NCBI RefSeq assembly: GCF_000148725.1 | Contig: NZ_GL476321.1 | Span: forward strand, 87,320 to 133,502 | Source of the DNA: Roseibium sp. TrichSKD4 | Lineage (GTDB): Bacteria > Pseudomonadota > Alphaproteobacteria > Rhizobiales > Stappiaceae | DNA: 46,183 nucleotides | Direction: 5' to 3' | Part shown: positions 4,801 to 41,047 of the stretch, in pieces | How the letters are laid out: every line of letters begins with the position of its first letter | Position numbering within the stretch: the stretch's first letter is position 1 | The notes under the pieces: model-generated | What the model was told of the DNA's origin: nothing | What the model saw: only the letters and a program-made list of their open reading frames with translations | Databases searched by the model: none | Made by a program: the position numbers and the translations under genes

Positions 4801-6391
4801 AGACGGTTCGGACTTGCCCGGATGGTTATCGTTCGACGCACAAACCCGCGCTTTTTCTGGAACCCCTCCACTGAACTTTAACGGCTCGTTGGACATCACC
4901 GTCACGGCCTCTGATGGAGCGCTATCGGCAAGTGACACGTTCACGCTTGAGTTTGAAGCCGTCAATGATGCTCCAATCGTCTCTGTTCCACTTGAAGACA
5001 AGTCTTCTGACGAAGATGCTGTGGTGAGCTTTACGTTGCCGTCTGATGCATTCACCGATGTTGATGAGGATACACTCACCTTCACCGCGACAATGGCAGA
5101 TGGTTCAACGCTTCCCGCGTGGCTGGCGTTTGATGCCGGAACGAGGACATTTTCCGGAACTCCCCCTCAGGATTTCAACGGGGTGTTGAATGTCTCGGTA
5201 GTTGCGTCGGATGGTACCTTGTCTGCAAGCGACACTTTTGAACTCGAGATCACACCGGTCAACGACGCCCCGATCCTTGCGGAAGCACTTGAAGATCAAA
5301 GCGGAACAGAAGACACGGCTGTCAGTTTTGTTCTGCCGGAAGATGCGTTTTCGGATGTGGATGGTGACACCTTGTCCTTGTCAGCCCGATTGGAAGACGG
5401 ATCAGATCTTCCGGATTGGCTTTCATTCGACGCCGATAGCCGCACCTTCTCTGGAACGCCACCGCAAAACTACAACGGGACTATCGACATCACCGTTACG
5501 GCTTCCGATGGGGTTCTGGAAGCTTCCGATACGTTTTCCCTTGATATCGCGGCAGTGAATGATGCGCCAACGGCAATCGGCGAAGGCGGTTTTGTGGTTG
5601 CATCCGGCACTCCGACAACATTCGCCGCAAGTGGTCTGTTGGCAAATGACGTCGATGTGGATGGAGACGCGCTTACCATTACATCTGTGTCTAGTACATC
5701 GGGGAATGCCACTGTTGAGCTCGATGCCAACGGCAATGTCGTTTACACGGCGGCAAATGGCTTTGATGGCGAGGACAGCTTCACCTATACCATCAGTGAT
5801 GGTGAGCTGACTGCCACCGCAGAGGTCATGCTGGTCGTGGAAGCTGACGACCCATATGAAGGCTGGGAGCAGGGAACGGACGGACGTGACTGGATGTTCG
5901 GCGATCTCTGGTCTTCCAACCAGATTTATGGCGCTGGCGGCAATGACATCATTGTTGGCGGCTTCTATGGGGACCAGCTCGCCGGTGGAACCGGAAATGA
6001 CCGGATCTGGGGTAACTGGGGCAATGATGAACTCCATGGTAACGACGGACGCGACAGGCTCTTTGGCGGCTTTGGCAATGATACCTTGAGTGGTGGTGCT
6101 GGAAATGACCGTTTGTGGGGTGGTTGGGGCCGCGATAATTTTGTCTATGAGGCCGGAGACGGGCGCGACAAGATCATGGACTTCGAAACAGGCCACCACT
6201 GGGGTTGGTTCAGGTCACGCGGAGACACCATTTCCATCGATGTGGATGGGATCGACAGTTTCACAGATCTTATGGGTACGGCGTCACAGGATGGGCGGAA
6301 CGTTGTGTTCGACTTCGGCAACGGCGATGAGCTGATCCTGTCAGGCACTCGCTTGGCTGCCCTCGATAAGGACGCTTTCACGTTCTACTAA
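1880..6391 (+). CDS. Large RTX / cadherin- and Ig-like repeat protein, type I secretion substrate
   Basis: 1503 aa, acidic, with no N-terminal signal peptide, as expected for an ABC-exported substrate. Order of parts: an unrecognised N-terminal domain (about 1-310); a first block of Ca-binding nonapeptides (about 320-420, e.g. GGQGNDRLLGG); a linker; a second short RTX block with a GDGDD motif (about 615-660); a cadherin-like domain (about 745-830); four tandem Ig-like (He_PIG/CADG-type) repeats of about 99 aa (about 833-1230); one cadherin-like domain (about 1230-1325); and a C-terminal RTX block (about 1327-1420) rich in Trp, followed by a C-terminal export signal ending in DAFTFY. Such proteins fold on meeting external calcium and act as adhesins, biofilm proteins or toxins; adhesin is the better guess because no enzyme domain is recognised. 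The exporter genes follow directly. Confidence 0.9.
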   Translation: MALPDINQVISRFLFGADTPPSDFSDEELIRDSDAKSELGSINVAEYMSTGPGKFALASNVNLVQSFFDAPFSITSPLFSQFQVEDSNRAEITKVELAAFFGLGSYGLSVDQKDWDDGSGDFAERAYIWGNTSFQINDEATFVIEKNESGFELSIDNFSLEPRRVDGNYRPENFNFESDDISTELTQAVSRKAIDPSGIGRTVELLFSGDVEKGTYTREDYESDQGKNEEYYSKFETDIDRIDLLQEGVQSIFDNLYEGGITSTLFEGKTVVYGTEFDDRMYYSITTEGNNVLDKTASVAGIWSFDLSHHKDATNGLALVGGHGDDRIVGFKYDDYLFGGGDNDTLYGRDGEDVLDGGKGQDELTGGQGNDRLLGGDNSDVLRGDDDEVADLLDGGEGADKIYAGLNDIVIGGDANDTLYYKGSAIGETKLAFDFRQFSEYLPPFASRDGYGHYFLGSFTGTKENPELLLINTGTVLFGIDATGKGFAVRDFESGDYGLDVRSPSEILPQAQAEFEEYGLRLDESRFIIEPYVKLLSTLNKFVPAVSSDESDALASFSIGLSGHAMAIVNTIFNGFFGLPYDFRGLSSSSLRSASLASTEVAYASEIQGNTDAEYLEGTDQNDLLEGLGGSDILVGKDGSDTYVWKPGDGDDAILEQASGSEDSDTLRLNGISPEQLVLKRTADDLTLTFVDPETAREQSIFVPNQFVADGSGIERIEFDNGVVWDGSKIATEAGESSNFAPFYLGEREFEIENDTEGQFDPLAFSEDYEGDELSITDVFAFDGEVSISADGKVIYVPPSGYTGQDSIFVTISDGNSSSTVELTINVVEPNNEVVVSSPIADQTSDEDNAWSFVVPEDTFSDADGDTLTLSARLEDGSSLPSWLSFDADTRTFSGTPPQDFNGTLSVEVVASDGESEASDVFVLEISPVNDAPVVSDSLDDQSGKEDTAVNFVLPEDAFTDVDGDTLTLSATQADGSDLPGWLSFDAQTRAFSGTPPLNFNGSLDITVTASDGALSASDTFTLEFEAVNDAPIVSVPLEDKSSDEDAVVSFTLPSDAFTDVDEDTLTFTATMADGSTLPAWLAFDAGTRTFSGTPPQDFNGVLNVSVVASDGTLSASDTFELEITPVNDAPILAEALEDQSGTEDTAVSFVLPEDAFSDVDGDTLSLSARLEDGSDLPDWLSFDADSRTFSGTPPQNYNGTIDITVTASDGVLEASDTFSLDIAAVNDAPTAIGEGGFVVASGTPTTFAASGLLANDVDVDGDALTITSVSSTSGNATVELDANGNVVYTAANGFDGEDSFTYTISDGELTATAEVMLVVEADDPYEGWEQGTDGRDWMFGDLWSSNQIYGAGGNDIIVGGFYGDQLAGGTGNDRIWGNWGNDELHGNDGRDRLFGGFGNDTLSGGAGNDRLWGGWGRDNFVYEAGDGRDKIMDFETGHHWGWFRSRGDTISIDVDGIDSFTDLMGTASQDGRNVVFDFGNGDELILSGTRLAALDKDAFTFY
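4378..5566 (+). repeat. Four tandem ~297-bp repeats encoding Ig-like domains
   Basis: Inside the RTX gene, four in-frame units of about 297 bp begin near 4378, 4675, 4972 and 5270. Each encodes the pattern EDxxxxFxxPxDxFxDxDxDTLTxxA, then LPxWLxFDAxTRxFSGTPPxxFNG, then VxASDGxxxASDxFxLxxxxVNDAP. The units are diverged at DNA level, so this is an old array. Copy number could vary between strains by recombination and change the length of the protein stalk. Confidence 0.85.
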
Positions 6392-6406
6392 AACCTGCTT
6401 CAGATC

Positions 6407-6433
6407 TGCCAGTGGGGCTTTTCCCCACTGGCA
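6407..6433 (+). terminator. Perfect 11-bp stem-loop between RTX gene and exporter
   Basis: TGCCAGTGGGG at 6407-6417 pairs perfectly with CCCCACTGGCA at 6423-6433 across a 5-nt CTTTT loop, 16 bp after the RTX stop. There is no T-run after it, so it may be a partial terminator or an mRNA 3'-end stabiliser. Either would give more RTX protein than exporter from one operon, as known for hly-type operons. Confidence 0.65.
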
Positions 6434-6476
6434 ATAAATCTGAGGTCGGGCGTGTACTTGCGCGTATTTGGTAATA

Positions 6477-8255
6477 ATGACCAAGCCAGACAATCCACTT
6501 GCAGCGGCGCTGAAGAAGTCCCGTTCCACCTTCTGGGCTGTTGGGCTCTTTTCGTGTGCGGTCAATATACTGATGCTGACCGGACCGCTGTTCATGTTGC
6601 AGGTCTACGATCGGGTTCTGGCGAGCCGGTCCGTGCCGACACTTTTGGCGCTTTTTGCATTGGTCGCGGCACTTTATCTTTTTCTCGGACTTTTTGACCT
6701 GATCCGCACAAAGGCGCTCTCGCGGATCGGTTATGGTCTGGATGTCGAGTTGTCAGCTTTGGCAAAGAAAGTCTGGATTTTTTCCAATCTTCACCCCGGA
6801 TCGATTAAATCGAGGCCCATCAACGATCTTGCCTCACTGAGGCAGTTCCTGAGTTCTAACGGCTTGCCAGCACTGTTCGACCTGCCATGGGTGCCGATTT
6901 ATCTGGCCATCGTCTATCTGCTTCATACATGGCTTGGCCTACTGGCAACCGCTGGGGCTATCATCGTTGTTACTGCGACTATGATCAATGAGTTGATTAC
7001 TCGCAAACCGATTTGGGAAGCGTCATCCTGGGAATTAAGAGACGCGCAGTTTGCAGAAGGGGCACATCGAAACGCAGAAGCTGTTGTGGCCATGGGCATG
7101 ACCAGCCGCGTTACGTCATATTGGCAATCCCTGCGTGACCAAGCACTCATAAAGGCGCAAGAAGCTGGCGGACGTTCTGAGTTTATTACCGCCTTTACGA
7201 AGTCCATACGTATGCTGGTCCAGTCCGGCATGCTGGCCTTGGGTGCATATCTGGCAATTTTCCAGGAAATTTCTCCCGGAACGATGATTGCCGCTTCCAT
7301 TCTTGGGGGACGGGCGCTCGCTCCGGTGGACGCTGCCGTTGCCAATTGGAAGAATTTTATTCGATCCCGGCTGGCCTATGGGCGGCTTTCCAAGATGCTT
7401 CAGGGAAATGGTGATAATTTCGAGCCAATCAACCTGCCGGACCCCAAAGGAAGGGTGACGGTGACCAATCTGCTGAAGCTTCCTCCCAAGAGTGCAGGCA
7501 GCCAAGGTGACCAACGACCGATTTTGCAAGGTCTGCATTTTGATCTTAATCCGGGTGATGGCCTTGGTGTCATTGGACCAAGCGCATCCGGCAAAAGCTC
7601 GCTCGCTCGGTTACTAGTGGGACTATGGATGCCTGACAAGGGGAGTGTCCGGCTGGATGGAGCTACATTTGATCAGTGGGACCGCGATGCCGTAGGGCAA
7701 TATATTGGTTATCTTCCCCAATCGGTCGAACTTCTGTCCGGAACCATCCGACAGAACATCGCCAGGTTTGATGCGGAGGTCAGTGATGAAGACGTCATCG
7801 CTGCTGCCCAGCTAGCGGCTGTTCATGAGTTGATTCTCGCCTTGCCTGACGGTTATTCAACTGATCTAGCCGTAGGGCAACAGGTATTGTCTGGCGGCCA
7901 GGTTCAACGCATCGGCTTGGCAAGGGCGGCGCTCAGAACTCCGCCACTTGTTGTGCTGGATGAGCCCAACTCCAATTTGGATGCCGATGGAGATGATGCT
8001 CTGACGCATGCAATTGCAAAGCTCCGCGAGGCGGGCAGTTGTGTGGTTGTGATGGCGCATCGACCAAGTGCGATTGAGGCGGTCAACAAGGTCTTGATGC
8101 TGCGCAATGGGCAACAAGTCGAATTTGGAGATAAGAACGAGGTCTTGCAAAAGGTCATGCGAGCACCGACGGCACCTTCAAAGCAGACAACATCAAATGA
8201 ACAACAACCATCATCCAAACGGGTCTTAAAGCCTGTCTCAAAACGAAAAATGTGA
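6477..8255 (+). CDS. Type I secretion ABC transporter, PrtD-like (membrane plus ATPase)
   Basis: 592 aa from the ATG at 6477; a TTG three codons upstream is less likely. The N-terminal half has several membrane helices (first about residues 22-45, then 50-70) and the C-terminal half is an ABC ATPase: Walker A GPSASGKSS near residue 367, signature LSGGQVQR near 471, Walker B VVLDEP near 492 and a switch His in MAHRPS. Size and lack of an N-terminal C39 peptidase domain fit the PrtD/HasD class of exporters for RTX proteins. It would form the inner-membrane part of a tripartite channel with the adaptor encoded next and an outer-membrane TolC-like protein that is not in this window. Its stop overlaps the adaptor start by 4 bp, indicating translational coupling. 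Confidence 0.93.
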   Translation: MTKPDNPLAAALKKSRSTFWAVGLFSCAVNILMLTGPLFMLQVYDRVLASRSVPTLLALFALVAALYLFLGLFDLIRTKALSRIGYGLDVELSALAKKVWIFSNLHPGSIKSRPINDLASLRQFLSSNGLPALFDLPWVPIYLAIVYLLHTWLGLLATAGAIIVVTATMINELITRKPIWEASSWELRDAQFAEGAHRNAEAVVAMGMTSRVTSYWQSLRDQALIKAQEAGGRSEFITAFTKSIRMLVQSGMLALGAYLAIFQEISPGTMIAASILGGRALAPVDAAVANWKNFIRSRLAYGRLSKMLQGNGDNFEPINLPDPKGRVTVTNLLKLPPKSAGSQGDQRPILQGLHFDLNPGDGLGVIGPSASGKSSLARLLVGLWMPDKGSVRLDGATFDQWDRDAVGQYIGYLPQSVELLSGTIRQNIARFDAEVSDEDVIAAAQLAAVHELILALPDGYSTDLAVGQQVLSGGQVQRIGLARAALRTPPLVVLDEPNSNLDADGDDALTHAIAKLREAGSCVVVMAHRPSAIEAVNKVLMLRNGQQVEFGDKNEVLQKVMRAPTAPSKQTTSNEQQPSSKRVLKPVSKRKM

Positions 8256-17279: not shown

Positions 17280-19280
17280 TCAGGTTCGAGTCTTCCGACG
17301 CCGCTTGTTGGTGGCCTCGATCATCGACTGTGGCCGAGATACGTCCAGCACGACAACCGAGAGCTTATCCTTCAATTGAAGCGGAAGGTCATCGACAAGC
17401 ATCGCCTCAAGCGCCTCGGCGCTGTCGGGACTGTCGGCGCCATCGCTTCTCTTAGGCGCGTTGAACTCAGTGCCGAACCAAAAGACGAGATAGATCCCGA
17501 AGCCGCAGGCGTCTGGATCCGCAGCGTAACCAGCGAGCTGGGTCGAAGCGGCTGTCCAGAGCTCGCCGTTGTAGTGCCGTTTGGCCTCGATCGGCAGATT
17601 CTTGCCGGCATGGCTCAGCATTAGTACGTCGACCCTGGTGTTCTCGCCGCGACGGGCCTCGGGAAGGCTCGCCGCAATGCCGTATCCTTCGAACCGCGGA
17701 CGAAGTAGTTCCAGGAGGCGGTCCCTGTCCTCGTTTTCGATCTGTGGTTTGGTTGCATTGCCATACTCGTCGGTGTTCCAGAACCGCTTCCAGGGCGTCT
17801 CACTTCCGGTCCTCAGCGTACTTTTGTACCTCTCGACCTCTTCCAGAACGACGGCCGCAAGGTCAGATGCGGTCGCCGGTGCGCCATCTGCGAGCGCACC
17901 CATCAGTTGGCTCACTGAGGGCGCCGCGAATTGTTCATCGCGCAGTTTTCGGGCGTGTTCCGCGGCTGCATGAGCAATATGGGGTGCCCAACTTGAATCG
18001 ACTCTCTCGGCGAGTGCCTTCAGGTGCGCGCCGGCTTCAGCCGAATTTGAAGCGCCGAGACGCTGGATCGCAGCTCTGACAATCCCGCTCACTCCACCTG
18101 AGTGCCGCCAGTCATCGTCGCGAGCCGGGTGATTCTTACCAAGAATGCCAATCCTGGTTCTGTCCAGCAGGTCGATGTCAGGACATAACTCGTTGAGCGT
18201 CGTGGCGAGGTCTCCGTTTGGAGCTAACAGAGCAGATTCGAGGTCCTGTTCTGAGAGCTGATCGGCAAATTCCTCAGGCATCAGCGCCAGGCCGACGAAC
18301 GACCAGATATCTCGTTGCTTCTGCTCTAGGTCGTCACGTTCCAAGGCACGGCGTGCGAGCTCTACCAGTTCGCCGATGTTCGAACTTTCGGCACATGCCC
18401 CGATCGCCTGCCTAAGGGCGAGATCCGGCAGCCCTGGCCTCTCGCCAAGCAGCCTAAGCATGCACAGGGAGACGAATGCCGGTTGATCTGCATTCGTGAG
18501 ATGATGGATCGCATCAAGGTCTTCATCGCCGGCATCGAGAGCGGCGTTCCAGTACCGCAGCATTATATCAGCGCCCTGCTCGGGATCGCTGGCCAGCCGG
18601 TCGACTGCCCAGGCGGCGATCGAAGGTTCCCCGTCGCGGCTGAAGTAGGCTTGCCGAAGCCCGACCAAAGCGATGATCAACGGAGACGCGTCGATATCGG
18701 TTTCACGGCCGTGCAACAGCGCCTGATGCAATCCTGACCTAACGACATATTCCTGAGGGTAAGCGCCATTGGTTGCTTCGGCTTTGCCGAGGACCTCTAC
18801 GCTGACCCTGATATCAGTGTGGATCGTAAATTGAACGAAGCCCTCGGCGATCGCCGCCGCGATCTCCTCATTTGTGTACCTGATGATGTTTTCGAATGGC
18901 GTCTTGTTCTGGCTGATCCGGCCATTCCGATAGTGCTCGGCAGCCCATCTCAAAACACCGAACTGGGTGGGAGCGCCGCTTGCGATCACTGCGAGATTCG
19001 GCGTCAGCTCTGCGATATTGCCATTCCGTGATTTCTCCGTTTCTTGGTCCTGCTTGGCCCTTCGCTTCGCCTCTTTGTTTTTCCATCCTGCGTTCGGGTC
19101 AGAGATGAGCGATTTGATAAAGCCCTTGAAACCGCCTTCCTGCTCCAGAAGCGAAACGATCGGCTCTTGCCATTTCGGCCAGCGATCTTCGCTGCGGGCC
19201 GCATAGGCGGCGATCTGAAACATCCTCTTTCGGGCCGCGCGCGAGTTCGTCGCCTGATGTCGCTTGGCATTTAAATGCAA
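17280..19280 (-). CDS. 5'-truncated gene: helical-repeat region plus C-terminal PD-(D/E)XK-like nuclease domain
   Basis: The frame gives 666 aa, but its first codons (MHLNAKR) are read from the end of the adjoining tni transposon (19258-19280), so the native start is lost or was farther upstream; an internal Met at 19223 is the next start. The middle (about 150-430) is rich in helical repeats. The C-terminal part carries a nuclease-like pattern: EARRGENTRVDVLM, then LPIEAKRHYNGELW (the D...ExK core), then GFGIYLVFWFG. This C-terminal arrangement reminds me of large NACHT/STAND-type defence NTPases with a nuclease end, of which this would be the 3' remnant. No NTPase motif is present in what remains. 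Confidence 0.6.
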   Translation of the reverse strand: MHLNAKRHQATNSRAARKRMFQIAAYAARSEDRWPKWQEPIVSLLEQEGGFKGFIKSLISDPNAGWKNKEAKRRAKQDQETEKSRNGNIAELTPNLAVIASGAPTQFGVLRWAAEHYRNGRISQNKTPFENIIRYTNEEIAAAIAEGFVQFTIHTDIRVSVEVLGKAEATNGAYPQEYVVRSGLHQALLHGRETDIDASPLIIALVGLRQAYFSRDGEPSIAAWAVDRLASDPEQGADIMLRYWNAALDAGDEDLDAIHHLTNADQPAFVSLCMLRLLGERPGLPDLALRQAIGACAESSNIGELVELARRALERDDLEQKQRDIWSFVGLALMPEEFADQLSEQDLESALLAPNGDLATTLNELCPDIDLLDRTRIGILGKNHPARDDDWRHSGGVSGIVRAAIQRLGASNSAEAGAHLKALAERVDSSWAPHIAHAAAEHARKLRDEQFAAPSVSQLMGALADGAPATASDLAAVVLEEVERYKSTLRTGSETPWKRFWNTDEYGNATKPQIENEDRDRLLELLRPRFEGYGIAASLPEARRGENTRVDVLMLSHAGKNLPIEAKRHYNGELWTAASTQLAGYAADPDACGFGIYLVFWFGTEFNAPKRSDGADSPDSAEALEAMLVDDLPLQLKDKLSVVVLDVSRPQSMIEATNKRRRKTRT

Positions 19281-19306: not shown

Positions 19307-19352
19307 GCAGTTAATTATGAGAATGGGGCGCTTTGATTCTCAGATTAACTGC
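19307..19352. repeat. Left-end TniA-site-like repeats (two, inverted)
   Basis: GCAGTTAATTATGAGAAT (19307-19324) and ATTCTCAGATTAACTGC (19336-19352) are inverted copies of one motif that also occurs at the right end. They are likely binding sites for the TniA transposase, as the TnsB/TniA repeats are at the ends of related elements. Confidence 0.65.
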
Positions 19353-20203
19353 ATTTGGGTAGAGTGTCTCATTTGGGAGGCTCTGACGAAGAACGGCATT
19401 GCTTCCCGGTCGAAGCGTTGCCGGTGCAAGGCCAAGGTGGACCGCCGCAGCATGTGAAGCATTTCAACTCCGCCGGAATGCACCATTGCAACACCGGCCA
19501 GAAGGACGGCACGCAGATGTAGTGGCAAGACTGGATGCTGCGGCGTTGGGAAGCTGGTGCAACTTTCGGCAAGTACGTGATCGAGTTCCGGGATGATTTT
19601 TCCCAGCACTCTGAACCGCCACAGTTCTTCCTCGGCCGGGAAAGGCAACTCTATTCTGCGCATGAGCAGCAGACGCACAATCCCAGCCGGCGACGCCCAA
19701 GTCTTGATGCCCCGTTTGGCTTCATCATCGAGCAGCTTCTCGCCAAGACGGGCAGTGTCAAGATATTGCTGGAAAGGGGAGGCTCGTTCGTGATCATCAA
19801 AATTCCGAAATTGGTTTCCGCATAATGGGCACGTAATGCGCCAGCCCTGCAGTTGGCTGCGCAGGACAGGCACCGGTTCCTGGCCCGCATTGCAGTTCAC
19901 GCAAACCTGTGTCGGCCGGACGGCGATGAGCCGACGCGATGATTGCGCCATATCTGTGAAGGTCATTTGACGTATCGCGGACGGTTTCGTGGCGAACATG
20001 TTGGCCAGGCGAATTTCCTGGGCGTTGGTAAGATGGAGATCAGCGCCACGCTGGGAACGGATTTCCGGAATGCAGTGCCGTAGCATGATCAGCGGAGAAA
20101 CCTCATAGAAGCTGGCGTGCCGGCCGATCCAGGAGGACAGAAGTTCGTCGGTGACGGAGGGCAATATCACCGGCAGCCGCTGTGTCACCATGACGTGCGT
20201 CAT
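19340..20203 (-). CDS. tniQ: TniQ-family target-selection protein
   Basis: 287 aa. The N-terminus LPVILPSVTDELLSSWIGRHA is the hallmark of TniQ/TnsD proteins. A zinc-finger-like CVNCNAG...CPLCG follows (about residues 100-130). TniQ bridges target DNA and the TniB ATPase in Tn7/Tn5053-type transposition. Its start overlaps the tniB stop by 4 bp. The 3' end of the gene overlaps the subterminal repeats, so the element has no room for cargo. Confidence 0.9.
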   Translation of the reverse strand: MTHVMVTQRLPVILPSVTDELLSSWIGRHASFYEVSPLIMLRHCIPEIRSQRGADLHLTNAQEIRLANMFATKPSAIRQMTFTDMAQSSRRLIAVRPTQVCVNCNAGQEPVPVLRSQLQGWRITCPLCGNQFRNFDDHERASPFQQYLDTARLGEKLLDDEAKRGIKTWASPAGIVRLLLMRRIELPFPAEEELWRFRVLGKIIPELDHVLAESCTSFPTPQHPVLPLHLRAVLLAGVAMVHSGGVEMLHMLRRSTLALHRQRFDREAMPFFVRASQMRHSTQMQLI

Positions 20204-21081
20204 GCGTAGGCCGCTTCGGTATCGAAGTCCGGCTCCCAGCTCTCGATGGCTTCGTCTGTAATGCGCTCGTGGCCATTCTCGATGGCATCGATCGCGAGGC
20301 TGTTGATCATGTGGAAGATATTTGCGGTGATACCCTCGGTGATCTGAAGTATCCGTCGCAGCGATTTCGCAGTCAGCACAGAGGGTTTGCGCAGAGGCGT
20401 ATTACGCAGGATGGATACGATCAGGGTTTCGAACTGGTCGTTGGCCGCCCACCGGCTCAACGTGAACTGCTGGAAACGGCGTGCGAGCTGAACGTCGCCG
20501 CTGATGGCCTCGCGCGCCTCGTTGACGCCGAAGCAGACCAGCGAGATCTGCAGTCGATTGCTGAGGAAGCGGAGCGTGTTCAAGACGATGCGTTGTTCAC
20601 GGTAGGATCCAGCGAGGATGTTATGTACCTCGTCGATAACAAGCACCTGAACGCCGATGGCCTCCATGATCCGCAACGTAGCCTGCTCCATCTGAGCAAT
20701 ATCGGCGCGCGGTCGCTGAGGTGCGCCCAGAAGGGTTAGGAGTTCGGCGTAGAACCGTCGCTCACCGGGACGGCTGGTCATTTCCATGGCCAGGACTGGT
20801 GTCTTCAACGTGCCCGTCAGCGGATTGAAGCTCGATGGATGCTCGTCCCGGAAGCGCTTCATGATCATGGTCTTGCCCATGCCGCTGTCGCCGTAAATCG
20901 CGACAGAAGGCATGCGCGTACCACGTGGGTGATCGAGGAGAGCACTCAGCCGGTCCAAGGCCTGTTTGGCGCGTGGGTAGAGCACCCATCGGCGTGATCG
21001 TATCGCACGAATGCGGCGTTCGTCCGTTTCGGAAAGCAGCGCTGCGGCCCTGGCGGTTAGGTGGGAGACTTCATTGTTCAT
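20200..21081 (-). CDS. tniB: TniB/TnsC-like AAA+ transposition ATPase
   Basis: 293 aa. Walker A GDSGMGKTMIMKRF (about residues 65-78) and Walker B VLVIDEVHNIL (about 150) are clear, followed by LRFLSNRLQISLVCFG sensor-1-type sequence. It is the regulator that assembles on target DNA and activates the TniA transposase. It lies between tniA (12 bp upstream) and tniQ (4-bp overlap) in one operon. Confidence 0.93.
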   Translation of the reverse strand: MNNEVSHLTARAAALLSETDERRIRAIRSRRWVLYPRAKQALDRLSALLDHPRGTRMPSVAIYGDSGMGKTMIMKRFRDEHPSSFNPLTGTLKTPVLAMEMTSRPGERRFYAELLTLLGAPQRPRADIAQMEQATLRIMEAIGVQVLVIDEVHNILAGSYREQRIVLNTLRFLSNRLQISLVCFGVNEAREAISGDVQLARRFQQFTLSRWAANDQFETLIVSILRNTPLRKPSVLTAKSLRRILQITEGITANIFHMINSLAIDAIENGHERITDEAIESWEPDFDTEAAYA

Positions 21082-21093
21082 ATTCGCTCCAGC

Positions 21094-22710
21094 TCAATCT
21101 GTATCCTCAACAAAGGGTACAGGTTTGCTGGAGTCGACACCGCGGAGCGAGCCCCATCCGCCATCATCCACCTTCGATTTCGAAGAAGAAGCTTTACTGC
21201 GTCGTGCTGCTGCCGTTTTTTTGGTTGCCGTATCGACGAGCTCACGTTGTGCGATCGCAGTACGGACGATGGCGCGGGTATCTACTTCACGGCGTCCCTT
21301 TGCAAGCAGGCTGCGTCGCGCCGTAATCGCTTCATGCAAAGTGACTGAAGGTAGGGTCACATCGGCATAACGGGCTTCCACGAAGTTCCCGGATGGCCGG
21401 CGAACGAAGATGCGCGCCATATCGCGCGGATCATATTTGACAAGCAGTCGCCGGTCCGAGCGTCCGACGTCGGCGCTAAGCGCTGCTGACCAATAACGCA
21501 AGCCGAACAGGTGAATGCCTGTCGGGCGCAAGGTTCGCTCCTGCTCGGGCAGAAAGGTGAGCCAGAAGCGAAGCCTGTCTTGTGGCAGCCGAAGAGGAAT
21601 CTCTCCCTCGTGCTCCCGCCACACCGCGATCGGCGGCCGGCCAAGGCTGCTGTGGATCGACTGATGATAGGCGCCCACGATGTCGAGAGCGATATACCGC
21701 TCGAGTTCCCGAAGCGTAAGCGCCGCATGCCGCTTGGAATTGTATTCGCCAAGCTCCTGCGGGTTGCTGAAGGTCGTTCCAGGCAAGAGATGCAGCCTCC
21801 CCATCTGCGTGCCGATCAGGCGCTCGATATGACCGCCGAAATGCGGCTCCCCCGGTGGCCGCCACTCGATCGCAATGCCGGCGTCCTCGCATCCTCGCTT
21901 GAAGGCTCGGCTGCGGAAGTCGGGACCATTGTCAACATGCACCATGTCCGGCAGACCAGCGACGGGCCACGGCTCCGTTATCTCACGTTCCCGGAGCCAT
22001 GCGGATTTGTCGAAAACGGAGTGTAACAGGCACAGGCTGGTCGATAGGCGGGATGGCGCTTCCATCGTGAGATAGAAGCCGGTCACCATCCGGCTGCAGA
22101 CGTCCATCGCCAATGTCAGCCATGGTCGGCCGAGCGGTTCCCGTGTCTCCTCGTCAACGACGAAGATGTCGGCCTTGGTATGGTCGATCTGGACCACTGC
22201 CAGGGGACGAGAGGCTTTGAACACTCCGGGAACGGCCGTTGTCGCCTTGACGATCGTCTGTTCGCCGCGCCGCTTTGCCCGCTTCTGCAGGTCGATGTCC
22301 TTTAGGCGAGCGACGATCGTTCGCCGATGCGGTGGCTTCAATCCGGCCGAGATGCAGTTCGTCTGCACGTCCCGCACCAACTGCGAGATCGACGGCCGTG
22401 TTCGCTTCAGGTAGAACTTTTTGATAGTCGTGCCGACGATCTCCTCCCGCTTTTCGTCCAGCGTACGATGGCCCTCCGGCCGTCCTCGCTTACGGTCGAC
22501 CAGAGACAGAACCGTCCCGCCGGCGCGGAACAGCTTTACCAGCCGGTAGGCCGTCGCCTGGCTGACATCCATCGCGACAGCGAGCCGGGAAACCTCTGCG
22601 GCGGTCGCACCGTCAGGATTGTGCTTCAGGAAGCTGCGGATCGCATCTGCCCGTCGGCAGGCTTCATCCCAAAGCGCTTCGTCAATTTCGTCAGGAAACC
22701 GATCGTTCAT
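21094..22710 (-). CDS. tniA: TniA-family DDE transposase
   Basis: 538 aa. N-terminal helix-turn-helix domains (e.g. AAEVSRLAVAMDVSQATAYRLV) precede an rve/Mu-type integrase core with all three acidic residues: QIDHTKAD, HVDNGPDF and GGHIERLIG. A Mu-type C-terminal beta-barrel follows and the C-terminus is basic. It cuts and joins the transposon ends. The start is near the right end of the element. The length is normal and there are no lesions, so the transposon may be active. Confidence 0.94.
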   Translation of the reverse strand: MNDRFPDEIDEALWDEACRRADAIRSFLKHNPDGATAAEVSRLAVAMDVSQATAYRLVKLFRAGGTVLSLVDRKRGRPEGHRTLDEKREEIVGTTIKKFYLKRTRPSISQLVRDVQTNCISAGLKPPHRRTIVARLKDIDLQKRAKRRGEQTIVKATTAVPGVFKASRPLAVVQIDHTKADIFVVDEETREPLGRPWLTLAMDVCSRMVTGFYLTMEAPSRLSTSLCLLHSVFDKSAWLREREITEPWPVAGLPDMVHVDNGPDFRSRAFKRGCEDAGIAIEWRPPGEPHFGGHIERLIGTQMGRLHLLPGTTFSNPQELGEYNSKRHAALTLRELERYIALDIVGAYHQSIHSSLGRPPIAVWREHEGEIPLRLPQDRLRFWLTFLPEQERTLRPTGIHLFGLRYWSAALSADVGRSDRRLLVKYDPRDMARIFVRRPSGNFVEARYADVTLPSVTLHEAITARRSLLAKGRREVDTRAIVRTAIAQRELVDTATKKTAAARRSKASSSKSKVDDGGWGSLRGVDSSKPVPFVEDTD

Positions 22711-22810: not shown

Positions 22811-22841
22811 TCGCTCAAGAGACTGAAAGCGTTGGTGCCTG

Positions 22842-22868
22842 ATTCTTATAATTAAATGGAAAGCGACA
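22842..22868 (-). repeat. Right terminal inverted repeat of the tni transposon
   Basis: Read inward on the minus strand it starts TGTCGCTTTCCATTTAATTA and continues TAAGAAT. It truncates the IS3-family orfB next to it. Confidence 0.75.
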
Positions 22869-23188
22869 CGAACCAACCGCTTCTTCGGCTTGATGCGCAG
22901 GTTCAACTCCAGCGACCGATAGATCCGCCGAACGCGCTTGTGGTTCTATGCATATCCTTTGACATTGCGCAGATAAAGAAAGCAAAGGCCGAACCCCCAA
23001 GTGCGATGCGTTGTCGTCAGCCGAACCAGCCAATCCGCGATCTCGGCATTCTCATCGCACAGTTTGCGTTCATAGCGATAGCAGCTTTCGCTGATCTGGA
23101 AAGTCCGACAGGCAAGCGCAATGCTCACGCCACACTGTCGAACAGCTCTGATGGCCATCTCCTTGCGTTGAGACGGCCGAGCTACTTT
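22869..23188 (-). pseudogene. IS3-family orfB remnant: nonsense codon and truncation
   Basis: The frame starts after a slippery run (AAAAAAG) at the end of orfA and reads VARPSQRKEMAIRAVRQ, the usual start of IS3 OrfB, then RTWGFGL and LRNVKGYA. A TAG at 22946-22948 replaces the expected Trp codon. The same frame continues NHKRVRRIYRSLELNLRIKP, then ends at the tni right end. The whole DDE core is lost. Confidence 0.85.
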
Positions 23189-23445
23189 TTTCCCAAAGCA
23201 TCCTTCAGCAGCTCGTTCTGCATCGCCATCTCGGCATACATCTTCTTCAGGCGCCGGTTTTCCTCGGCCATGGACTTCATTTCAGTCATCAGGGACGCAT
23301 CCATGCCGCCATATTTGGATCGCCAATTGTAGTAAGTCGCGTTGCTGATCCCGTGTTCCCGGCAAAGGTCAGCGACCGGCACACCGCTCTCACCCTGCTT
23401 CAAGATTGCCAGGATCTGGCTTTCCGTAAATCTCGATTTCTTCAT
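23182..23445 (-). CDS. IS3-family transposase OrfA
   Basis: 87 aa from the ATG at 23445 (MKKSRFTESQILAIL). The N-terminal helix-turn-helix (VADLCREHGISNATYYNWRS) and the leucine-zipper-like C-terminal helix (MAEENRRLKKMYAEMAMQNE) are intact. It ends in a run of A residues on the coding strand that normally directs -1 frameshifting into orfB. It cannot support transposition because orfB is broken. Confidence 0.9.
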   Translation of the reverse strand: MKKSRFTESQILAILKQGESGVPVADLCREHGISNATYYNWRSKYGGMDASLMTEMKSMAEENRRLKKMYAEMAMQNELLKDALGKK

Positions 23446-23548
23446 CTCGTTCTCCATCCATATCAAAGGCCGGAGAAGTCTAATTTTCAACCCTATGTTT
23501 TTCGGGGACGATTACCCGAACGCTCCAAAAACCCCGGAAAAACAGGCT

Positions 23549-23573
23549 TTCTCGCACCAGCGAAAGAAATTTG
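23549..23573 (-). repeat. Stub of an IS6-family terminus left of IS110 copy 1
   Basis: TTCTCGCACCAGCGAAAGAA and the following ATTTG match the reverse complement of the left end of the IS6 element at 38680-38713. The repeat is completed on the other side of IS110 by CAACAGTGCC (24954-24963). The IS6 body itself is gone. Confidence 0.75.
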
Positions 23574-23658
23574 ATGGTGTGGAACGGCCCTTCGCACCCG
23601 GCATCAAGGATGCCTATTGTGATGATGCCAATCGTCACATGATAGAAGGAACCATTCC

Positions 23659-24690
23659 ATGGACAAGATTACCACAATCGGACTGGATTTAGCCAAATCG
23701 GTCTTTCAAGTTCATGGCGTTACGGAAGATGGCGGTGTCGCTGTGCGACGTCGTTTACGGCGATCACAGCTATTGGAATTCTTCCGTACCGTTGAGCCTT
23801 GTCTTGTCGGCCTTGAAGCATGCGCCAGCGCCCATTACTGGGCTAGTGAGATCAGAAAATTCGGCCACACGGTACGTTTGATGCCTCCGGTCTATGTGAA
23901 GCCTTATGTTAAGCGAAACAAGACCGATGCAGCCGATGCAGAGGCAATCTGCGAAGCAGTCACGCGTCCGACGATGCGTTTTGTGCCCGTCAAATCACGT
24001 GAAGAGCAAGCTGCGGGCATTGTGTTGAAAACCCGAGAGCTCCTCGTGCGTCAAAGAAGCCAAACAGCAAACGCCCTGCGTGCTCATATGGCTGAGTTCG
24101 GAATTATCGCTGCAAGTGGAATGGCGAGTATTGCCAGGCTTACAGCCATTTTGCGCGACAATCAGGATGACTGCTTACCAAACGCGGCCAGAGCAGCGCT
24201 TCTGGAAATGGCCGAGCAGATAGAAAAGCTGACGGACAGGATTAATGCGTTGGATACCAAGATCGTTGCAGGCGTGAAAGCCGATGAAGCGGCTCGTCGA
24301 TTGACGACTATTCCGGGCGTCGGGCCAATTATTGCCGCGACCGTTCGTGCAGTCATCCAGGATCCCGCTGCCTTCCGGACGGGGCGAGACTTAGCTGCCT
24401 GGATTGGCCTTACGCCCAACGCCAATTCCAGTGGAGGAAAAGAGCGCCTCGGGAGAATCTCCAAGCGTGGCAATAAACAACTGCGCACTCTTTTGATCGT
24501 CGGCGCCACGGCGGTTCTGAAGCAAGCCCGTGGAGCACAGAAGCGACCTGAATGGGTCCTGTCATTGTTGGCGCGGCGTCCCTACAAAGTGGCGGCTGTT
24601 GCACTGGCCAACAAGATGGTACGCATCATATGGGCGTTACTCGTGAAGGGGGGAACATATCAAGCGCCAACGGCCATGGCAAAGATTTAG
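23659..24690 (+). CDS. IS110-family recombinase (DEDD transposase), copy 1
   Basis: 343 aa. The N-terminal RuvC-like DEDD domain shows TIGLDLAKSVFQVHG (first Asp), CLVGLEACASAHYW (Glu) and RNKTDAADAEAICEA (paired Asp). The C-terminal Transposase_20 domain has LTTIPGVGPIIAATVRA, FRTGRDLAAWIGLTPNANSSGGKERLG and the serine region SKRGNKQLR. These enzymes use a non-coding bridge RNA to join element and target. It is identical in protein sequence to the second copy, is intact and may be active. Confidence 0.95.
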   Translation: MDKITTIGLDLAKSVFQVHGVTEDGGVAVRRRLRRSQLLEFFRTVEPCLVGLEACASAHYWASEIRKFGHTVRLMPPVYVKPYVKRNKTDAADAEAICEAVTRPTMRFVPVKSREEQAAGIVLKTRELLVRQRSQTANALRAHMAEFGIIAASGMASIARLTAILRDNQDDCLPNAARAALLEMAEQIEKLTDRINALDTKIVAGVKADEAARRLTTIPGVGPIIAATVRAVIQDPAAFRTGRDLAAWIGLTPNANSSGGKERLGRISKRGNKQLRTLLIVGATAVLKQARGAQKRPEWVLSLLARRPYKVAAVALANKMVRIIWALLVKGGTYQAPTAMAKI

Positions 24691-24951
24691 GACTATCATT
24701 GCCGGCGTTTCAACGCCGGGATAACACGGCAAGGTACGAAAGCGTGATGAACCCGCGGGGCAAAACCTCAATATCAATCAGACCGCCTGTTGCAATGCGC
24801 CTTCGAGCGCGCAAATTTGATTAGGCGATTGGTATTGCGGATATCATCGTGGCCAGCGGTCGATGGCCGCAAAAACAGGCCGTACATATGACTGCACCGT
24901 CCGACGGAAAATTAACGCAGAAAAACCTTGCTTTGTGGGCCGTTCCACATA
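24691..24951 (+). ncRNA. Candidate bridge RNA region of IS110 copy 1
   Basis: The 261-bp 3' non-coding end is highly structured. A hairpin follows the stop (GGCGTTT/AACGCC near 24703). A stem-loop at 24785-24826 has outer stem GCCT/AGGC and inner stem TGCGC/GCGCA, and its internal-loop strands are CTGTTGCAA (24787-24795) and AAATTTG (24813-24819). These match the two halves of the insertion target (IS6 end read inward, CTGTTGCAAATTT). Farther on, ACATATG at 24884-24890 matches the right end of the element (CACATATG), a possible donor guide. Position and logic fit an IS1111-type bridge RNA; expression is not shown. Confidence 0.55.
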
Positions 24952-24952
24952 T

Positions 24953-24963
24953 GCAACAGTGCC
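24953..24963. repeat. Outer part of an IS6-family terminal repeat right of IS110 copy 1
   Basis: GCAACAGTGCC is the outer end of the IS6-type terminus (GGCACTGTTGC on the minus strand). It directly abuts the broken integrase gene, so the IS6 element had inserted into that gene before IS110 arrived. Confidence 0.75.
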
Positions 24964-38610: not shown

Positions 38611-38744
38611 TTTGCGCCAGAAGCTAAGGAGGCCTTTGGGCTGACCTGCGCATTCGCCTCCCATCATGGCGCTACAATCGGCACTGTTGCAAATTTCTTT
38701 CGCTGGTGCGAGAAGCAGCTTTTTCAGAGCAGGTTGTTGATTTC

Positions 38745-39467
38745 ATGAGTGCATTCAAAGGCCGTCATTTCACGGGTGAAGTCGTGTTGTGGGCGGTTCG
38801 CTGGTATTGCCGGTATGGGATCAGTTATCGCGACCTTGAACAAATGATGGCCGAGCGCGGCGTGCGGGTCGATCACGCCACGATCTACCGGTGGGTTCAG
38901 ACCTACGCCCCTGAAATGGAAAAACGTCTGCGCTGGCAGTGGCGTCGGCCAGCTTCGGGCAGTTGGCGGGTCGATGAAACCTACATCAAAGTTCGCGGAA
39001 AATGGACTTATCTGTACCGGGCGGTGGACACACACGGGAACACCATCGACTTCTATCTCTCAGCCACCCGGAATACGAAGGCCGCGAAACGGTTCCTGGG
39101 CAAGGCATTGAGGGGGCTGAAAGACTGGGAAAAGCCCCATACAATCAACACTGACAAAGCGCCCACTTATGGTGCGGCTATTCTGGAGCTGAAAGCGGAG
39201 GGCAAATGCCCCTCGGACACCGAGCATCGTCAGGTCAAGTACCTGAACAATATCGTCGAGGCCGATCACGGCAAGCTGAAACAGCTGATCCGGCCCGTAC
39301 GCGGGTTCAAAACGTTGAAGTCAGCCTACGCGACAATCAAGGGCTTTGAGGTCATGCGTGCCCTACGCAAGGGCCAAGCCGGCATCTTCAACTTCACAAA
39401 TGACATTCTCGGCGAGGCTCGCATCGTCGAACGATGCGTTCGGCATCGGTGCCTGTGCTCTGGCTGA
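38745..39467 (+). CDS. IS6-family transposase with frameshifted C-terminus
   Basis: 240 aa from MSAFKGRHFTGEVV, the usual IS6 start; a GTG at 38706 lies nearer the terminal repeat. Catalytic residues are intact: Asp in SWRVDETYIKV, Asp in TINTDKAPTY and Glu in NIVEADHGKLK. After GEARIVER the frame changes: the family-like sequence FGIGACALAEAMNMLENHL continues one frame over, from about 39440 to 39512, so one base was gained near 39435. The last ~25 residues are replaced by CVRHRCLCSG. Catalysis might survive. Confidence 0.85.
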   Translation: MSAFKGRHFTGEVVLWAVRWYCRYGISYRDLEQMMAERGVRVDHATIYRWVQTYAPEMEKRLRWQWRRPASGSWRVDETYIKVRGKWTYLYRAVDTHGNTIDFYLSATRNTKAAKRFLGKALRGLKDWEKPHTINTDKAPTYGAAILELKAEGKCPSDTEHRQVKYLNNIVEADHGKLKQLIRPVRGFKTLKSAYATIKGFEVMRALRKGQAGIFNFTNDILGEARIVERCVRHRCLCSG

Positions 39468-39644
39468 AGCCATGAACATGCTCGAAAACCATCTTCAAGA
39501 TGCTGAAGCTTGAACTGGAGTGCCGGAATGGGCAGAAATCTGTCGGGACGCAAAGTTTGATGGTGTGGAACGGCCCTTCGCACCCGGCATCAAGGATGCC
39601 TATTGTGATGATGCCAATCGTCACATGATAGAAGGAACCATTCC

Positions 39645-40676
39645 ATGGACAAGATTACCACAATCGGACTGGATTTAGCCAAATCGGTCTTTCAAGTTCA
39701 TGGCGTTACGGAAGATGGCGGTGTCGCTGTGCGACGTCGTTTACGGCGATCACAGCTATTGGAATTCTTCCGTACCGTTGAGCCTTGTCTTGTCGGCCTT
39801 GAAGCATGCGCCAGCGCGCATTACTGGGCTAGTGAGATCAGAAAATTCGGCCACACGGTACGTTTGATGCCTCCGGTCTATGTGAAGCCTTATGTTAAGC
39901 GAAACAAGACCGATGCAGCCGATGCAGAGGCAATCTGCGAAGCAGTCACGCGTCCGACGATGCGTTTTGTGCCCGTCAAATCACGTGAAGAGCAAGCTGC
40001 GGGCATTGTGTTGAAAACCCGAGAGCTCCTCGTGCGTCAAAGAAGCCAAACAGCAAACGCCCTGCGTGCTCATATGGCTGAGTTCGGAATTATCGCTGCA
40101 AGTGGAATGGCGAGTATTGCCAGGCTTACAGCCATTTTGCGCGACAATCAGGATGACTGCTTACCAAACGCGGCCAGAGCAGCGCTTCTGGAAATGGCCG
40201 AGCAGATAGAAAAGCTGACGGACAGGATTAATGCGTTGGATACCAAGATCGTTGCAGGCGTGAAAGCCGATGAAGCGGCTCGTCGATTGACGACTATTCC
40301 GGGCGTCGGGCCAATTATTGCCGCGACCGTTCGTGCAGTCATCCAGGATCCCGCTGCCTTCCGGACGGGGCGAGACTTAGCTGCCTGGATTGGCCTTACG
40401 CCCAACGCCAATTCCAGTGGAGGAAAAGAGCGCCTCGGGAGAATCTCCAAGCGTGGCAATAAACAACTGCGCACTCTTTTGATCGTCGGCGCCACGGCGG
40501 TTCTGAAGCAAGCCCGTGGAGCACAGAAGCGACCTGAATGGGTCCTGTCATTGTTGGCGCGGCGTCCCTACAAAGTGGCGGCTGTTGCACTGGCCAACAA
40601 GATGGTACGCATCATATGGGCGTTACTCGTGAAGGGGGGAACATATCAAGCGCCAACGGCCATGGCAAAGATTTAG
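39645..40676 (+). CDS. IS110-family recombinase (DEDD transposase), copy 2
   Basis: 343 aa with a protein sequence identical to the product of 23659-24690; one synonymous base difference (GCG for GCC in the ASAHYW region) was seen. Same DEDD and Transposase_20 domains. Near identity means recent movement or gene conversion between the copies. Confidence 0.95.
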   Translation: MDKITTIGLDLAKSVFQVHGVTEDGGVAVRRRLRRSQLLEFFRTVEPCLVGLEACASAHYWASEIRKFGHTVRLMPPVYVKPYVKRNKTDAADAEAICEAVTRPTMRFVPVKSREEQAAGIVLKTRELLVRQRSQTANALRAHMAEFGIIAASGMASIARLTAILRDNQDDCLPNAARAALLEMAEQIEKLTDRINALDTKIVAGVKADEAARRLTTIPGVGPIIAATVRAVIQDPAAFRTGRDLAAWIGLTPNANSSGGKERLGRISKRGNKQLRTLLIVGATAVLKQARGAQKRPEWVLSLLARRPYKVAAVALANKMVRIIWALLVKGGTYQAPTAMAKI

Positions 40677-40937
40677 GACTATCATTGCCGGCGTTTCAAC
40701 GCCGGGATAACACGGCAAGGTACGAAAGCGTGATGAACCCGCGGGGCAAAACCTCAATATCAATCAGACCGCCTGTTGCAATGCGCCTTCGAGCGCGCAA
40801 ATTTGATTAGGCGATTGGTATTGCGGATATCATCGTGGCCAGCGGTCGATGGCCGCAAAAACAGGCCGTACATATGACTGCACCGTCCGACGGAAAATTA
40901 ACGCAGAAAAACCTTGCTTTGTGGGCCGTTCCACATA
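40677..40937 (+). ncRNA. Candidate bridge RNA region of IS110 copy 2
   Basis: Same sequence as in copy 1. The target-guide strands are at 40773-40781 (CTGTTGCAA) and 40799-40805 (AAATTTG). At this site the target is CAAAGTTTG/CAACAGAG, so the second guide has one mismatch (AAGTTTG versus AAATTTG). Confidence 0.5.
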
Positions 40938-41047
40938 TGCAACAGAGCCCTTTCTCGTCGATTTGAGCGCTGATTGCGGGCTCTCTGTTCAATCCTGGAG
41001 GCTGGAGTGCTCATTATATATAGAAGGACAAACGAGTTGCTAGTATG

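Follow-up and report, generated by a model that had tools for sequence, protein, structure and literature searches.

An IS1111-group element of Roseibium sp. TrichSKD4 carries a predicted bridge-RNA target-binding loop that matches the IS6-family tips in which it lies

We analysed a 46,183-nt stretch of contig NZ_GL476321.1 of Roseibium sp. TrichSKD4 (the window) and conclude that the interval 24785-24826 is almost certainly the target-binding loop of a bridge RNA, or seekRNA, specified by the noncoding DNA that follows the transposase gene in an IS1111-group element. The computations establish the insertion site and its core, the covariation of both target guides and of the right-end donor guide with their counterparts, and the conserved fold. 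The coordinates of all features are collected in Table 1.

Two near-identical copies of the element (IS110 family), A and B, are present in the window and agree at 1396 of 1399 positions. Hallmarks of the IS1111 group are subterminal repeats, a DEDD transposase motif and a longer noncoding region downstream of the gene (PMC11187229), the inverted repeats being 7-17 bp long (PMC11208160). Both copies encode a transposase of 343 aa. In both, the subterminal inverted repeats, a feature of the IS1111 group, are perfect over 13 bp and are separated from the core dinucleotide by 4 bp on the left and 2 bp on the right. The noncoding DNA extends for 261 nt past the stop codon vs. 85 nt ahead of the start, the long region thus lying downstream, again as in that group. 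The copy A transposase matches NF033542 (IS110 family RNA-guided transposase) with an E value of 4e-100 and has the Pfam domains of the IS1111 group, PF01548 and PF02371 (Transposase_20, C-terminal). Its D10, E53, D90 and D93 were assigned by eye, and GLTPNANSSG at residues 250-259, read from the translation, corresponds to the GL-P----S(T)G motif of the group. The element thus resembles the IS1111 seekRNA elements ISEc11, ISPa11, ISKpn4 and ISPst6 in its downstream noncoding region, its subterminal inverted repeats and its DEDD transposase with the GL-P----S(T)G motif, theirs being 330-350 aa in length (PMC11187229). The solved proteins nearest by sequence are the ISCro4 and IS621 transposases. 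No Rfam family reached its gathering score within the window, no plasmid record covered 80% of either searched part of it, and none of five pattern matches in viral contigs was a relative of the element.

Table 1. Coordinates of the element copies, their insertion sites and the predicted guide RNA in the window
Feature	Position	Strand	Basis or remark
IS1111-group element, copy A	23574..24951	+	1378 bp between core dinucleotides; ends parsed with 65 other elements (copy B included)
Left core TG, copy A	23572..23573	+	Comparison of copies and relatives; empty IS6 end in Roseibium
Right core TG, copy A	24952..24953	+	Comparison of copies and relatives
Left subterminal inverted repeat, TGTGGAACGGCCC	23578..23590	+	13/13 inverted match to 24937-24949
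DEDD transposase/recombinase, 343 aa	23659..24690	+	PF01548, PF02371; NF033542
Target-binding stem-loop of the predicted guide RNA	24766..24840	+	Outer stem 24766-24767/24839-24840 and 24769-24779/24827-24837
Guide 1, CTGTTGCAA	24787..24795	+	Complements the top strand of right flank and core; covariation scan
Inner stem-loop GCGC-CTTCGA-GCGC between the guides	24797..24810	+	Alifold, 56 sequences
Guide 2, AAATTTG	24813..24819	+	Same sense as left flank and core, pairs with bottom strand; covariation scan
Probable left-end donor guide	24844..24849	+	Complement of left end ATGG and core; weaker than the right-end guide
Donor-loop stems	24851..24881	+	24851-24854/24878-24881 and 24856-24860/24866-24870; helices 3 and 4 (19 sequences), alifold
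Right-end donor guide, ACATATG	24884..24890	+	Equals right end ACATA and core TG; 3′ of target loop
Possible handshake position	24891..24891	+	Agrees with first right-flank base in many relatives, not in the window element
Right subterminal inverted repeat, GGGCCGTTCCACA	24937..24949	+	Inverted match to 23578-23590
IS6-family element interrupted by copy B	38680..39559	+	Transposase 38706-39467 by NF033587; left tip at 38680 is an unoccupied target
Core TG pair, copy B	39558-39559 and 40938-40939		
Copy B, same element, in right end of the IS6-family element	39560..40937	+	1378 bp; comparison with A; empty site in Roseibium L092

The initial annotation had proposed that CA/TG is the core dinucleotide and flanks the element, and this was borne out: TG lies on both sides of copies A and B, and the empty IS6 end in Roseibium has it once. 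Copy A is flanked by ..AAATT-TG and TG-CAACAGTGCC, copy B by ..AAAGTT-TG and TG-CAACAGAGCC. The uninterrupted right end of an 85%-identical Roseibium IS6 element reads AAAGTTTGCAACAGAGCCC, which equals the two flanks of copy B joined over a single TG; the IS6-family element H123 is 85.4% identical to that of the window. The other tip of the element hosting copy B is free of any insertion and reads GGCACTGTTGCAAATTT at 38680, and the 13-mer CTGTTGCAAATTT, found at a single place in the window (38684), is part of this intact left tip. The host site of copy A looks like a remnant of such an IS6 tip, with 25 bp in common with 38690-38714. The location of copy B in the other IS6 tip goes beyond the initial annotation, as does the donor-binding loop found 3′ of the outer stem.

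Several mobile elements seem to be nested around copy A, an apparent IS3-type element remnant, noted by eye at 22840-23490 (minus-strand ORF 23182-23490), adjoining the IS6 remnant that holds copy A. A TniA/TniB/TniQ-type transposition module (TniQ PF06527, Mu-transpos_C PF09299) occupies the minus strand at 19340-22710 (and 17280-19280) and shares 97% identity with a plasmid of Roseibium aggregatum over 2.9 kb; an adjoining 666-aa ORF had no Pfam match at E 0.001. At 1880-8255, an ABC transporter follows a 1503-aa protein that contains Ig-like, cadherin-like and RTX calcium-binding repeats; the pair resembles a secreted repeat protein and its type I exporter.

The interval 24785-24826 reads GCCTGTTGCAATGCGCCTTCGAGCGCGCAAATTTGATTAGGC. 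Its two loop strands were said to match both halves of the IS6-end target, and they do: CTGTTGCAA at 24787-24795 is the reverse complement of T-TG-CAACAG, and AAATTTG stands at 24813-24819. The left flank of copy B departs from guide 2 at one of five letters (AAGTT vs. AAATT). With a Markov model of the region, the 9-mer followed by the 7-mer within 41 nt is expected 7.4e-6 times, and among 200,000 Markov sequences the 9-mer alone appeared in 175 and both strands in none. Such an expectation speaks against a resemblance by chance, in which the stem-loop would be an ordinary transcription terminator. A terminator-like pattern does lie at 24796-24813, with the tail AATTTGATTA, and the 1.55-kb stretch contains three terminator patterns vs. 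1.6 expected. Yet the "T tail" is guide 2 itself and varies with the target, and the guide letters follow the target over 55 distinct targets, as described below; we regard a chance likeness to the target in an ordinary terminator as extremely improbable.

For the structure of the target-binding loop we used an alignment of 56 sequences, from which copy B and one identical sequence were left out, as were L069 and L073, whose noncoding region aligned badly owing to an early stop. Run on the full set of 56, RNAalifold found the inner stem and the donor stems and missed the outer target stem, in our view because the latter is out of register between clades; a second alignment of 19 of the 56 sequences was therefore used for it. 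In the 56-sequence alignment, three of the four pairs of the inner stem (24797-24800/24807-24810) are changed on both sides in 6-11 sequences. The outer stem (helix 1 of the 19-sequence alignment) comprises 13 pairs, with 93.5% of cells paired and seven pairs changed on both sides. The whole structure of the 19 sequences has 26 pairs, with 95.9% of cells paired; pairs changed on both sides number 9 vs. 4.6 in shuffles and cells changed on both sides 24 vs. 6.5, whereas sliding the partners by one to three columns lowers the pairing to 22-41%. Weak among the five structure measures was the count of further pair types (19 vs. 16.4; 29 of 500 shuffles), and single-sequence folds gave z values of -1.5 for 158 nt and -3.2 for 261 nt. 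A conserved secondary structure with internal loops and compensatory changes, as in seekRNAs and bridge RNAs, is thus present in the homologues in both alignments, as the initial annotation had anticipated. Its claim that two stems frame the strands held for the inner GCGC/GCGC stem, and the outer one had been misplaced: the covarying outer stem is 24769-24779/24827-24837, outside 24785-24826. A GCCTG/UAGGC stem inside that interval appears in the single-sequence fold, overlaps guide 1 and has no covariation beyond shuffles, and it was rejected.

Covariation of the loop strands with the flanks was examined in relatives, which comprised 19 loci from a set with one genome for each of 84,980 species, 18 loci taken from the 60 plasmid matches listed, and up to 30 loci per search from genomes of the same family and order. 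There were 100 transposase placements of sufficient length; 66 had both ends set by subterminal repeats, and the 34 unparsed ones stayed outside the test. With one mis-parsed element (L060) removed and the core of L041 set by hand, 65 were kept, or 60 elements after subtraction of five duplicates. A scan then compared 264 noncoding columns with 26 target positions in both senses, over 54 distinct targets and with 300 permutations; L090 was absent from it because of a short flank, which left 59 elements.

Over the whole noncoding region, the strongest signals of the scan fall on the two guide strands. The six top same-sense signals link 24813-24818, in register, to target positions -5 to the core (z 5.4-8.2), and the four top complement signals link 24789-24792 to positions +4 to +1 (z 5.5-7.4). 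Columns 24787 and 24788 vs. positions +6 and +5 (z 4.1) come seventh and eighth; directly ahead of them stand two off-target columns, 24842 and 24844, vs. position -4 (z 4.4). These and other weaker signals, such as 24750 vs. -4 (z 4.6), were taken as effects of relatedness.

Direct counts over 55 distinct targets gave the same picture. For guide 1, 227 of 330 positions agree with the target (permuted mean 99.7, SD 8.9), and for guide 2, 224 of 275 (permuted 87.8, SD 7.9); 0 of 20,000 permutations were as high in either case, in tests that relatedness inflates. The agreement holds in each of three bands of protein identity, again with 0 of 20,000 permutations as high: guides 1 and 2 agree at 65/72 and 50/60 positions (47.7 and 35.2 permuted) for the 12 distinct targets at 75% identity or more, copy A among them, at 55/78 and 54/65 (24.1 and 22.8) for 13 targets at 58-75%, and at 107/180 and 119/150 (58.8 and 46.3) for 30 targets below 58%. 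Some of the misses are register shifts of one or two bases. With a small shift permitted, 37 of the 55 elements have no more than two mismatches in each guide, counting the core (5,000 permutations: mean 1.6, maximum 8), and 18 fail this measure even with the shift. A poor guide (fewer than 6/9 agreements in guide 1 or 6/8 in guide 2, shift allowed) was seen in 13 of the 55, including L058, L044 and L073.

As the relatives share history, we also examined 24 non-overlapping pairs of similar elements with different targets, picked greedily by noncoding similarity outside the guides and not on a tree. In these pairs the guide differs at 78 of 121 differing target letters vs. 20 of 139 unchanged ones (odds ratio 10.8, Fisher p 3e-17), and in 58 of the 78 co-changes both guide letters match their own targets. 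Among the less similar pairs the guides change thoroughly, as in L042/L055 (88% alike) and in copy A/L050 (75% alike), where copy A and L050 each match their own target 11/11. The covariation between loop strands and flanks that the initial annotation had proposed as a check in elements with other targets is therefore present over the 55 targets, among the 12 at 75% identity or more and in the pairs. The core takes part as well. Its two copies read CG in L024 and AG in L027, and in each element the same dinucleotide stands in guide 2 and in the donor guide, a natural series of core choices.

Unchanged guides at differing sites were seen in the four closest pairs, L091/L089, L030/L031, L066/L068 and L044/L058, which are 96-100% alike when the guides are set aside. 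Mismatches are thus tolerated, and not every flank can be predicted from the guides. In one of these pairs, L058/L044, the noncoding regions are 96% alike, the last seven letters of the left flanks are the same but for one and the right flanks are different, neither matching guide 1 well, with TATATG at that place in L044; perhaps the flanks recombined, the insertions were off-target or an end was mis-set.

Agreement between flank and loop would also be obtained if flank DNA were copied into the element on excision, so that the matches were not guides at all, and natural changes of target do need some origin. However, simple capture would copy one continuous strand, whereas here strand 1 is a complement of the top strand and strand 2 has the same sense, the two lying astride a conserved stem in all three identity bands. 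The four closest pairs keep their guides at different sites, and the loop is therefore not overwritten by each new flank. We consider capture very improbable. Recognition of the tip by the transposase protein, with the RNA loop merely co-evolving, is compatible with the sequence data taken alone. It is difficult to reconcile with L042 and L055, which are 88% alike in noncoding sequence outside the guides and yet have almost no guide or target letters in common, guide 2 of each agreeing 5/5 with the flank of its own element. Moreover, when the target parts of an IS1111 seekRNA and the donor flank were changed together, insertion was redirected (PMC11187229), and we give protein recognition hardly any credence.

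The noncoding DNA 3′ of the target loop contains strands that follow the element's own ends. For the right end, over 30 distinct donor strings, covariation was seen between 24887 and RE-2 (z 5.8), 24885 and RE-4 (z 5.0), and 24889 and the core (z 4.5). For the left end the best complement signal is that of 24844 with position +4 (z 4.3). A donor-binding loop complementary to the joined ends, as in bridge RNAs, is thus found, with a strong right-end guide and a weaker left-end one. The covariation of the donor strands with the element ends therefore suggests that the predicted RNA appears to carry both a target and a donor loop, as the IS621 bridge RNA does (PMC11208160). The joined ends would read TTGCTT-16-TATGAT, which is promoter-like, with 3/6 and 5/6 consensus letters; at least 4/6 in both junction hexamers was found in 44 of the 60 elements, the first hexamer reaching 7.4 of 60 on average at random offsets.

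In IS621, once strands have been exchanged, the target is paired with donor-loop bases that lie past the core (PMC11208158), and the corresponding position may act as such a handshake guide in some relatives of the window element. Column 24891 equals the first right-flank base in 35 of 55 elements vs. 17.5 permuted, and, among the 24 distant elements outside the GCAC cluster, in 16 vs. 6.4 expected; the next base, 24892, agrees in 26 of 55 vs. 23.1. At 58% identity or more there is no signal (13/25 vs. 11.7), the position changes in step in one of 13 informative pairs, and the window element itself mismatches. Among the literature matches listed, PMC11208158 alone combines "handshake guide" with IS1111.

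The initial annotation's reading of the interval as a target loop of the IS1111 type, downstream of the gene, agrees in order and position with published IS1111 seekRNAs, in which the complement of the top strand likewise stands 5′ of the match to the bottom strand and natural reprogramming between relatives also occurs (PMC11187229). In contrast to those seekRNAs, the target is an IS6-family tip, the link between guides and flanks comes from covariation over 55 targets and not from RNA sequencing or assay, and the donor guides are also located by covariation. The predicted RNA shares with the IS621 bridge RNA a two-loop layout, one loop for the target and one for the donor, and in each loop a pair of guides that overlap at the core dinucleotide. 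In IS621 (PMC11208160, PMC11208158) the RNA lies upstream of the gene, whereas it is downstream here, the core is CT instead of TG/CA, and the two layouts superpose only with the target read on the opposite strand. On its other strand the IS6 tip is CTGTTG-CA-AATTT, and in this reading guides 1 and 2 correspond to the left and right target guides of IS621, respectively, which would explain why the IS1111 order looks reversed relative to IS621.

Production of the RNA, its binding by the transposase and its role in transposition are inferred from published work on IS1111 and IS621. The transposase would bind RNA from the downstream noncoding region. Guides 1 and 2 would pair with opposite target strands, each on its own side of the TG core, and the second loop (approximately 24840-24891) would pair with the two ends of the element once these are joined. 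The circular element would then be inserted by strand exchange at TG. In the window element the guide letters reproduce the terminal inverted repeat of an IS6-family insertion sequence, the place in which both copies are found.

Many close relatives have targets of a different kind. Of 13 close relatives with parsed ends (at least 75% identity), eight gave a flank match in tblastn searches with the annotated L029 protein, an ISL3 transposase; that of L048 is at 39% identity and that of L021 extends over 90 residues only. Seven of the 13 have the ISL3-tip-like right flank (A/C)GTCAGAGCC, which is GGCTCTGAC(T/G) on the other strand, and six have both features. The guide 1 letters are CTGTTG in the window element vs. 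CTGACT or CTGACG in the ISL3-tip relatives, two to three letters apart, and the IS6 tip differs from the ISL3-tip-like site in the same manner. The window element is unusual in being aimed at IS6 tips, where many close relatives lie at ISL3-like tips. A search of 397 genomes of the order for the IS6-tip guide pattern gave one match in each of 11 genomes, none of the 11 having two GCGC arms by eye; a reversed control pattern gave two matches.

Natural reprogramming has been described for ISEc11/ISXne4 (PMC11187229), and IS4321 and IS5075 are, by the title of Partridge and Hall 2003, IS1111 elements aimed at the tip of another element, of the Tn21 family. The window element is similar to these two in inserting in the tip of another mobile element and different in its protein (approximately 38% identity) and in the tip family. 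No IS1111 element aimed at IS6 or ISL3 tips was found in the literature searched by titles and abstract openings. We advance as a tentative idea, more doubtful than not, that an alphaproteobacterial IS1111 clade specialises in IS tips and shifts from one tip family to another by four or five guide letters, and that IS1111 bridge RNAs carry a handshake position.

It is well supported that the element adds to the already known seekRNA/bridge RNA class; its target is unusual, and the target changes form a natural series. Our results provide an independent confirmation, from sequence only, of the guide code of the IS1111 group over 55 distinct natural targets, donor side included. The data set is one of natural retargeting events and marks the guide positions: six letters in guide 1 and five in guide 2, besides the core. 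Members of the IS6 family are well known for moving genes between plasmids. An element aimed at their tips may disable them.
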